Positions 19,821-22,027 of a stretch of DNA of 64,000 bases are shown piece by piece (within the stretch, counting starts at the first letter, position 1; each line of letters opens with the position of its first letter). The notes under the pieces were generated by a model that ran no database searches, was not told the origin of the DNA, and saw nothing but the letters and a program-made list of their open reading frames with translations. The stretch is from Pyrococcus kukulkanii. Lineage in GTDB: Archaea; Methanobacteriota_B; Thermococci; Thermococcales; Thermococcaceae. The translations under genes and the position numbers were made by a program. The stretch is taken from assembly GCF_041647995.1 (NCBI RefSeq), contig NZ_JARRIB010000001.1, positions 248,001 to 312,000 of the forward strand. The letters are read 5' to 3'.

Positions 19821-20429
19821 TCATCTCCTGACTATCTTCATCTCAAACTCCTCAACTGGCACTTTAAAGTCTTCTCTGCTCTGTATCTCCCCCCTGTTGT
19901 AGAGTATCTCCCTGGCTAGGATCCAGTATATTAAAGCCAAGGCCTTTCTACCCTTGTTGTTTGTTGGTATTGCAAGATCAACATAGCTCAGGAGGTTCTC
20001 AGTATCAACGAGGGCAACTATTGGAATGCCAACCTCTACGGCCTCTTTCATTGCCTGGTGATCTGCTCTGGGATCTGTAATAATTATCACATCGGGCTCA
20101 AAGAAGTTCTTTACTGCAGGATTTGTCATTGTCCCAGGGAGAAATCTTCCGGGCATTGCCCTAGCTCCTGTAACCTCCCCGAACTTCTTCACGGGCTTCT
20201 GGCCATAAAGCCTAACGCTTACTGCAAGTATGCTCTGGGGCTCGAACTTTGCCAAGAATTTGCCCGCTACTTTAAGCCTCTCATCAGTCTTCCTAACATC
20301 AAGGACGTAGAGGCCGTCCTGTCTGACTCTGTAGATGAACTTTTTCATGTCCTTGGTTTTCTGCTGTGTCCCTATATGGACTCCAGCTGCTAGATATTGG
20401 TCAAGTGGAACGAGATACTCATCAGCCAT
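19821..20429 (-). CDS. rpsB: 30S ribosomal protein S2
   Basis: About 202 residues, archaeal S2 (Sa). [40 protein letters not shown] and [11 protein letters not shown] are family-specific, and [20 protein letters not shown] follows. Binds the head-body junction of the small subunit. ATG 20429 has AGGAGGTGG six bases upstream, better than the TTG at 20435. Last of the RNAP/ribosomal run, directly after the enolase-like gene. Confidence 0.96.
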
Positions 20430-20443
20430 CTCCAACCACCTCC

Positions 20444-21469
20444 TTACTCTTCAAACGTTATTATCCTACCCCTTTCACCCAACTCTTCAGCTATCCTATT
20501 CAGCTCGTTAATTTTCTCGACTGAGTTCCAATTTATTAACATAGCCGGGCACCTAAGGCCCAGCGCCACGTGAGGGAGAGTTTCATCAGCCGGCTCGTAC
20601 TTAGCCTCAGCCAAAATTGGGGTTATTTTTTCGGCCTTCACATCGTTCACGAAGTTATACAAGTCGGTGAGCGTTCCAAGGTTTATAGGTTTTATTGATA
20701 GTGCGTTGTAATACCTCCTATCCAATATGTTCTTGGTTCTGAAGAGATATTCTCCATCTATAAATACTCCATGAGTGCCCGCTATAAGCTCAAGGAAGAG
20801 TTCTGGCTCTCCTATGGGTTTTATGTACGCTATGTTATTGTCTTCCACTAAGTTAAGAACCGATTCTATGTCCATTTCTTTTTTCATCGTAATTCCAAGG
20901 GCTACCTCAAGACCAAGCTCCATCCCCACTTCCTCAGAAGCCTTGGAAAGTGATTCCAAGCTCAGCTCCGAGGATTTCTCCAATATCTTGCTTATTGCGT
21001 CAATTATATCCGTGACCTCGAGGAGATCTCTAACAATCAAATGATATTCAAACTTCTCATCCCCAGCGAACGTAAGTATTGGAACTGGGAGTTCTGTTGT
21101 GAATGTGCCTCCAATGTACGAGTATAGGGAGAGGTCCCTAGAGCTTGCAGCGGCTTTTGCTATAGCAACAGAAACCGCTAAGGCCGTATTTGCCCCTATA
21201 TGGCTTAGGTCGTCAGTTCCATCAATTTCCCATAGGTAGCTGTCAATAAGTTCCTGTTCAACGGCGTCAAAGCCAATGAGCTCAGGCCCAATTATTTCGT
21301 CAACTTCACTCACAGCCCTTCTCGCCTCGGCAATGTGAAGAAGAGGGTTTTCTTCAATAGGAGAAGCAAACCTACCAAAACCGTCATCGGTTACAACATC
21401 TACTTCAACCGAATACTTTCCCCCTCTCAATACTATAACCCTTCCTATAACGTTCTGTATGACGCTCAT
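20444..21469 (-). CDS. Enolase-like protein, probably catalytically inactive
   Basis: 341 residues, about 90 shorter than true archaeal enolase. The order of enolase features is recognisable: [48 protein letters not shown] where enolase has GDDLFVTN, and [13 protein letters not shown] where enolase has the KPNQIGTLTE lysine. The SHRSGE active-site loop is replaced by AEAKYEPAD and the metal ligands look altered, so 2-phosphoglycerate dehydration seems unlikely. Its fixed place between rpsB and rpoK in Pyrococcus suggests a role tied to ribosome or RNA polymerase, which is inference. Confidence 0.85.
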
Positions 21470-21475
21470 CCCGCA

Positions 21476-21649
21476 TCAGCTCGGCCTAATTACTGTTATT
21501 GGTATCACACCCTTTTCAAACTCCATGATTGCCGCATCCAAAGGTGTTATTCCTTCGGGAACGTCTATAAGGACCGGTGCCCCCATTGCTATCTGGAGAG
21601 CCCTTGCACCTATAATCCTAGCTTTTTCAAATCTCGTGTACTTGAACAC
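21476..21649 (-). CDS. rpoK: DNA-directed RNA polymerase subunit K (Rpo6)
   Basis: 57 residues. [20 protein letters not shown] and [19 protein letters not shown] match Rpo6/RPB6, which clamps the largest subunit. The start is GTG 21649, with GAGGTG six bases before it and the family's usual length; a longer open frame runs back into the tRNA-Pro gene and is not coding. It lies six bases before the enolase-like start, so both are on one transcript. Confidence 0.95.
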
Positions 21650-21669: not shown

Positions 21670-21746
21670 TGGTGGGGCCGCCGGGATTTGAACCCGGGTC
21701 ACCGGCGCCCCAGGCCGGGAGGATAGCCAAGCTACCCCACGGCCCC
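21670..21746 (-). tRNA. tRNA-Pro (anticodon GGG)
   Basis: Reads GGGGCCG at the 5' end and CGGCCCC-A-CCA at the 3' end, seven paired acceptor bases with CCA encoded. The T-arm is GGGTTCAAATCCC and the anticodon loop is CTGGGGC, giving GGG. No intron is seen. It sits between rpoN and rpoK on the same strand. Confidence 0.96.
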
Positions 21747-21770: not shown

Positions 21771-21968
21771 TTAATAAACCCTATAGTGCATTATCTCATC
21801 GATTAACTCAACGTGACTGAGGAGCATCCTCCTGCAACAGTACCTCTCAAGGCCAAGATCATCAAGCACCTTCTCGGGATCCTCCCCTGCCTCGACTCTT
21901 CTCTTGAACTCGTAATACTTATCGCCAATTACCTTCCCACAGGTAAAGCATCTCACGGGAATTATCAA
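21771..21968 (-). CDS. rpoN: DNA-directed RNA polymerase subunit N (Rpo10)
   Basis: 65 residues. Zinc ligands are CFTC near the N-terminus and the paired cysteines of [14 protein letters not shown], as in RPB10. I choose TTG 21968, which gives [10 protein letters not shown] as in other Pyrococcus proteins and has GGGGTG seven bases upstream; the GTG at 21983 would add five residues and lose the ribosome site. Confidence 0.94.
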
Positions 21969-22027
21969 CGGCTTACACCCCACTCGCTTTTCGATAATAA
22001 AGAGTTTTTAAAATTAACGGAGGAAGA

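Follow-up and report, generated by a model that had tools for sequence, protein, structure and literature searches.

A predicted enolase pseudoenzyme retained in the RNA polymerase/ribosomal operon of Thermococcales, with relatives trimmed of most of the catalytic barrel

A role for enolase in gene expression has long been suspected, from its presence in the bacterial degradosome and from its position in archaeal ribosomal operons. Partner binding in the degradosome occurs at the enolase dimer cleft, and the Escherichia coli enzyme remains active, unlike, judging by its residues, the protein described here. The second role of an active enolase is hard to study because glycolysis interferes. 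The degradosome enolase of E. coli (PDB 2fym and 5ohg) is a described case of an enolase acting as a protein binder in RNA metabolism. In archaea, Makarova et al. (2015; PMC4390880) reported operon enolase paralogues in Thermococci and Methanococci (arCOG01169/arCOG01170, branches 3 and 4), and proposed that they evolve fast, have lost the glycolytic role and serve an ancillary role tied to ribosome biogenesis. The core idea of an operon paralogue with a non-glycolytic, ancillary role has therefore been in print since 2015; neither another paper treating these paralogues nor an experimental study of the protein was found in searches of open-access full texts.

The accessible parts of that article do not deal with the state of the catalytic residues, with barrel-less forms in sister families or with the pattern in which the operon copy stays intact where it is the only enolase. 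As far as open-access searches show, barrel-less forms of 191-200 amino acids beside rpsB are not in print, and the operon-lineage residues, the intact operon copy in 23 of 23 one-enolase genomes, the shift of constraint and the doubled acidity relative to true enolase are likewise new. Here we describe this protein, EnoL, whose operon role appears separated from catalysis and whose half-size version points to the part that matters. We think it probable, with real room for doubt, that EnoL is a vertically inherited operon enolase, freed from catalysis and now serving in gene expression as a protein-binding factor. Since its relatives have been trimmed to about half the size of an enolase, the presumed non-enzymatic job can be tested on its own, and both Thermococcus kodakarensis and Methanococcus are genetically tractable.

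The window, that is, the whole stretch of DNA analysed, covers 64,000 nucleotides of Pyrococcus kukulkanii. An initial annotation, made from the sequence alone, had placed an enolase-like gene at 20444-21469, between rpsB and rpoK and close to both. These coordinates proved exact; the coding strand is the minus strand, the plus-strand reading of the same interval being riddled with stops. The features of the locus are listed below.

19821..20429, minus strand: rpsB, ribosomal protein uS2, with its ATG at 20429 (NCBIfam, sequence)
20436..20443, minus strand: GGAGGTGG, presumed ribosome-binding site of rpsB, immediately 3' of the EnoL stop (read from the sequence)
20444..21469, minus strand: EnoL, enolase-like predicted pseudoenzyme of 341 amino acids (Pfam, NCBIfam, alignments)
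20471..20521, minus strand: C-terminal helix, EnoL residues 317-333 (alignment, predicted model)
20585..20611, minus strand: AEAKYEPAD, EnoL residues 287-295, in place of the catalytic SHRSGE loop (sequence, alignment)
21107..21469, minus strand: N-terminal enolase domain, EnoL residues 1-121 (Pfam, 28-row alignment, model, rate comparison)
21476..21649, minus strand: rpoK, Rpb6-like RNA polymerase subunit, start codon unsettled (Pfam, NCBIfam)
21670..21746, minus strand: tRNA-Pro (GGG), between rpoN and rpoK (tRNA scan)
21771..21983, minus strand: rpoN, RNA polymerase subunit N, frame taken from its first start codon (ORF list, Pfam)

Along the minus strand the order is rpsI, rpoN, tRNA-Pro(GGG), rpoK, EnoL and rpsB, followed later by a MEMO-like gene and mevalonate kinase (we assigned the names rpsI and MEMO from sequence). 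The rpoK stop is separated from the EnoL ATG by 6 nt, and the EnoL stop from the rpsB ATG by 14 nt, with GGAGGTGG in between, a spacing that suggests co-translation of EnoL and uS2. The gap between rpoK and EnoL is 5-11 nt in every Thermococcales locus measured. With its rpo6/rpoK and rpsB neighbours and another enolase encoded outside the operon, EnoL corresponds to the genes and operon described, in the accessible text, by Makarova et al. (PMC4390880). In several distant archaea, too, tRNA-Pro(GGG) lies near these genes, a conserved placement of a tRNA within the operon, and it serves there as a marker of positional orthology.

Profile scores identify the window protein as an enolase by homology. 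Pfam Enolase_N is matched at 84.9 bits (cut-off 35; 7e-24), Enolase_C at 18.3 bits, below its cut-off of 21.5, and the enolase model TIGR01060 at 112.6 bits, below its cut-off of 300. By score the protein belongs to NCBIfam PRK08350 (NF006223), a family that carries the name 'hypothetical protein' (684 bits, cut-off 624). The initial annotation had seen in it a conserved inactive enolase, shorter than the true enzyme and with AEAKYEPAD instead of the SHRSGE loop. The replacement is found at residues 287-295 and the protein is about 90 residues shorter than true enolase. Aligned to the true enolase of the same organism, it matches at most 2 of the 12 catalytic positions, which are numbered here as in yeast enolase: K345 (K260 of EnoL) and E168 (an E, beside a gap). 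S39 is changed to N, H159 to F (F in one alignment, a gap in another), E295 to K, D320 to E, H373 to E, R374 to A and S375 to K, and E211, D246 and K396 have no equivalents. With D246 missing, K at E295 and E at D320, the enolase set of three metal ligands and catalytic Glu/Lys/His is lacking. All ten Thermococcales EnoL rows compared (10/10) share this pattern with small variation. At most 2 of 12 catalytic positions, in a protein that 92 of the order's 94 genomes encode, bear out the picture of a conserved, presumably inactive enolase in an RNA polymerase/ribosomal operon, and provide a residue-level confirmation, from sequence, of the Thermococcales case of the PMC4390880 paralogues.

The AlphaFold2 model of the window protein (mean pLDDT 87.5, pTM 0.88) is closest to enolase (Z 41.0, rmsd 2.0 over 337 residues; for 2pa6, Methanocaldococcus jannaschii MJ0232, Z 39.8, rmsd 2.0 over 332 residues), a likeness that is partly built in because the input alignments consist mostly of true enolases. 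The enolase barrel is present in the predicted model despite the sub-threshold Enolase_C score. Compared with canonical enolase (TIGR01060; MJ0232, 2pa6), EnoL would share the fold and has lost the catalytic residues.

The same genome encodes a second full-length enolase at G000:C5 149420-150280 (443-aa frame, Enolase_C 443 bits), which retains 12 of 12 catalytic residues; the absence of another enolase, which would have spoken against an inactive operon copy, was therefore not found. Most Thermococcales genomes contain both EnoL and a true enolase. In the accessible text of PMC3561251, PF1641 and TK1497 appear among enolase genes; TK1497 is the EnoL locus of Thermococcus kodakarensis.

EnoL was found in 92 of the 94 genomes of the order, including all 74 with at least 90% completeness; the two without a match, G083 and G085, are 77% and 61% complete. 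The listed EnoL frames contain no internal stops, and 88 of the 94 genomes exceed the PRK08350 cut-off. The presence of EnoL in the order is not due to chance. The gene had initially been called fixed in the operon, which is too strong a word outside Thermococcales: two genomes of the related family f5 (G113, G114) have the operon without EnoL and a single intact enolase outside it. A scan of viral contigs found no relatives of the Thermococcales form.

Selection was estimated in a sample of 16 genomes (120 possible pairs), of which 45 pairs with EnoL identity of 0.80-0.995 were listed. EnoL dN/dS was 0.022-0.107 in the 39 of 45 listed pairs with computable dS, many of them saturated, and in the four pairs with dS below 1 it was 0.022-0.045, against 0.027-0.085 for true enolase. 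Mean column identity in a 28-row alignment of Thermococcales EnoL is 84%. These values point to strong purifying selection on EnoL. Across the same Thermococcales pairs, dS in EnoL frequently amounts to two to three times the value for true enolase, a pattern that stronger codon bias and higher expression of the glycolytic gene could explain. An EnoL protein without function, whose frame is kept only for translational coupling to rpsB, is extremely unlikely: the tight spacing, a ribosome-binding site inside or just past the EnoL end and the TAATG overlaps of several short forms described below would fit, but the amino acids are under strong selection with 84% mean column identity over 28 rows, a coupling leader needs no 341 constrained residues, and the f5 genomes do without any such frame.

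The descent of EnoL was examined in a careful tree of 56 rows and 194 columns, in which the long, short and Methanococcales-like EnoL forms fall on the same side of a branch (97/94), beside the operon enolases and far from the glycolytic enolases that Thermococcales encode outside the operon. This tree was flagged for meeting long branches. Quick trees, each omitting one EnoL group and also six rows that are mostly long branches (L217, L222, L221, L208, L205 and L203), gave supports of 92, 78 and 38. The joining of the three EnoL groups may reflect long-branch attraction, and a single origin of all EnoL forms is not firm, because long branches meet and the support is 92, 78 and 38. A tree-independent comparison used 19 columns in which operon-resident and off-operon enolases differ. 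In Thermococcales EnoL, 8 of these columns carry the residue of the operon type and 1 that of the off-operon type, while 8 match neither and 2 are gaps; the Methanococcales-like forms are of operon type at 7 and off-operon type at 1, and the short forms at 2 and 1, with 10 gaps. EnoL thus appears, from its residues, to belong to the lineage of operon-resident enolases and not to the glycolytic one. Two candidate EnoL-specific residues, H300 and E322, were rejected as such since they are common to 23 of 24 operon enolases, and they therefore count as evidence for descent. D157, the sole column common to long and short forms and absent elsewhere, lies in a gappy stretch and was not trusted.

All 12 catalytic residues are kept in 19 operon-resident enolases of other archaea (L183-L202 without L197) and in 13 further ones (L203-L215). 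In a survey of one genome per family (80 genomes, with 23 others, mostly small, left out), rpsB was found in 80 of 80 and Enolase_N in 79 of 80. Among the 32 operon copies, 23 come from a surveyed genome with a single Enolase_N match, and the operon copy is intact (12/12) in all 23. Degenerate operon copies beside rpoK were found where another enolase exists, namely in the Methanococcales-like families f26 and f46 (L218, L219) and in genome G324 (L217). Family f46 has a second copy of 310-320 amino acids in 13 of 14 genomes; the order rpoN-rpoK-EnoL was read in nine f46 loci, with EnoL beside rpoK also in one f26 locus, and rpsB lies elsewhere in both f46 genomes in which its position was read (G135, G176). 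The off-operon enolase of f46 scores 860 bits to MJ0232, which places the family close to Methanocaldococcus and makes MJ0232 an enolase of the glycolytic, off-operon type.

The operon enolase after rpoK in G324 (L217/L312, G324:C31, 706-1903) is of full length, at 399 amino acids, yet has nearly all catalytic residues changed, in another family that also has a second, apparently full enolase; perhaps it is an independent pseudo-enolase. L221 (G167:C9), a second enolase, has E168 changed to N and E211 to D and keeps the remaining catalytic residues.

A profile built from 28 Thermococcales forms was searched against genomes of the same class. Its matches in three sister families, f2-f4 (f3 being, at a guess, Methanofastidiosales), cover the N-terminal domain and the last ~40 residues, and mostly not the part between. 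With a combined profile, this short form was found in 18 of the 19 genomes of these families, the exception being G096. The 13 short forms measured are 191-200 amino acids long and join the N-terminal domain through a short linker to the C-terminal helix (317-333 in EnoL), whose core they retain; well over 100 barrel residues are absent from them in the alignment. The short form is about half the size of a normal enolase, the greater part of the catalytic barrel being gone, and the barrel appears dispensable for EnoL function in these families. The predicted model of one of them, L224 (AlphaFold2, mean pLDDT 83.7, pTM 0.83), most closely resembles the corresponding portions of enolase (best Z 17.8, rmsd 2.2 over 192 residues), a likeness partly built in by an input alignment mostly of true enolases. 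Scores against PRK08350 are only 41-69 bits for three short and two Methanococcales-like forms.

Where both neighbours were read, short-form genes sit between rpoN and rpsB with no rpoK between, and their ends abut the rpsB start or overlap it by TAATG; tRNA-Pro(GGG) was present at nine of nine short-form loci scanned. EnoL is linked to the operon and not to a single gene, on the rpoK side in Methanococcales-like genomes and on the rpsB side in short-form genomes. This bears on whether EnoL is a part of RNA polymerase or an assembly helper acting via RpoK, rather than a ribosomal factor: its position 5-11 nt after rpoK in the Thermococcales loci measured, and beside rpoK and not rpsB in the nine f46 and one f26 loci, would suit such a role, but with the short forms lacking rpoK alongside and abutting or overlapping rpsB we consider it unlikely.

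No full enolase was matched in 6 of the 19 f2-f4 genomes, all six of which have EnoL (G097, G098, G099, G101, G108 and G109; completeness 69, 84, 87, 91, 91 and 94%). Incompleteness would account for 2.4 such cases (P = 0.02), and some of these genomes may be without a glycolytic enolase entirely. Two enolase frames in fragmented genomes, L091 (G102:C67) and L099 (G103:C6), carry in-frame stops, through sequencing error or decay.

The distribution of constraint was compared between EnoL and the true enolase, both taken from the same 16 genomes. The EnoL/true enolase rate ratio is 2.34 over the first 46 residues, 1.23 over the N-domain helices (47-121), 2.42 over the barrel (122-265) and 3.08 over the C-terminus (266-333), and 66 positions are fixed in both proteins yet different. 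Constraint in EnoL has thus shifted toward the N-domain helices, its most conserved part. An enzyme with a different activity in an altered barrel is very unlikely on these figures: K260, equivalent to K345, and several of its neighbours do not vary among the 28 aligned Thermococcales forms and the predicted barrel is intact, but the barrel is among the faster-changing parts and has largely been lost from sister families in which the gene persists, and of the metal ligands D246 has no counterpart and E295 and D320 are replaced by K and E.

R10, E22 and R325 are kept in all long and short EnoL rows and not in the Methanococcales-like forms; they correspond to the dimer contacts R8, E20 and R414 of yeast enolase. 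EnoL would probably act as a dimer in Thermococci. The retention of these residues in long and short forms, together with the presence of both proteins in most Thermococcales genomes, would also suit a regulatory subunit, one that pairs with the glycolytic enolase in mixed dimers to tune or tether it. We regard this as distinctly unlikely, since 6 of the 19 genomes of the short-form families keep EnoL without a full enolase match (2.4 expected, P = 0.02) and EnoL adjoins rpoK and rpsB, not glycolysis genes.

EnoL is also acidic. Its mean net charge per 100 residues is -9.0, against -4.4 for true enolase in the same 16 genomes, and it is the more acidic of the two in 16 of 16; the short forms range from -5.8 to -8.9. 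Acidity alone is not diagnostic, because intact operon enolases span -9.1 (op_L192) to +2.4. The adjoining uS2 has a pI of 9.3.

In the reading we favour, that of an operon enolase freed from catalysis, EnoL would descend vertically from the archaeal enolase encoded in the RNA polymerase/ribosomal superoperon. A second enolase elsewhere would have taken on glycolysis, after which the operon copy could have lost its active site. The retained job would need the N-terminal domain and the C-terminal helix, and would lie in binding another gene-expression protein made in step with uS2 and, in Thermococcales, also with RpoK. We infer that this job is protein binding, as a scaffold or chaperone, and concerns translation or transcription. 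The initial annotation, half of whose reading is borne out, had hinted at a part in ribosome assembly or RNA polymerase, and the data would agree with this. Because of the strongly acidic composition and the retained dimer-holding residues, we prefer to picture EnoL as a dimeric module that is acidic and serves in binding.

Yeast has dedicated acidic chaperones for basic ribosomal proteins, for which reason uS2 is the single partner we would favour. Specifically, EnoL might be dedicated to binding freshly synthesised uS2, or an assembly intermediate that contains uS2, as an exapted acidic N-domain chaperone or assembly factor stabilised by its own C-terminal helix; we offer this only tentatively, as a possibility with the odds against it. 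Were it true, the ~195-aa sister forms would be the minimal version, an enolase minus its catalytic barrel, and it would reveal why an archaeal enolase resides in the ribosomal superoperon.

The off-operon second enolases L151 (G110) and L152 (G096) have H159 changed to L and H373 to E and are otherwise intact; these two possibly represent a different activity of the enolase superfamily.
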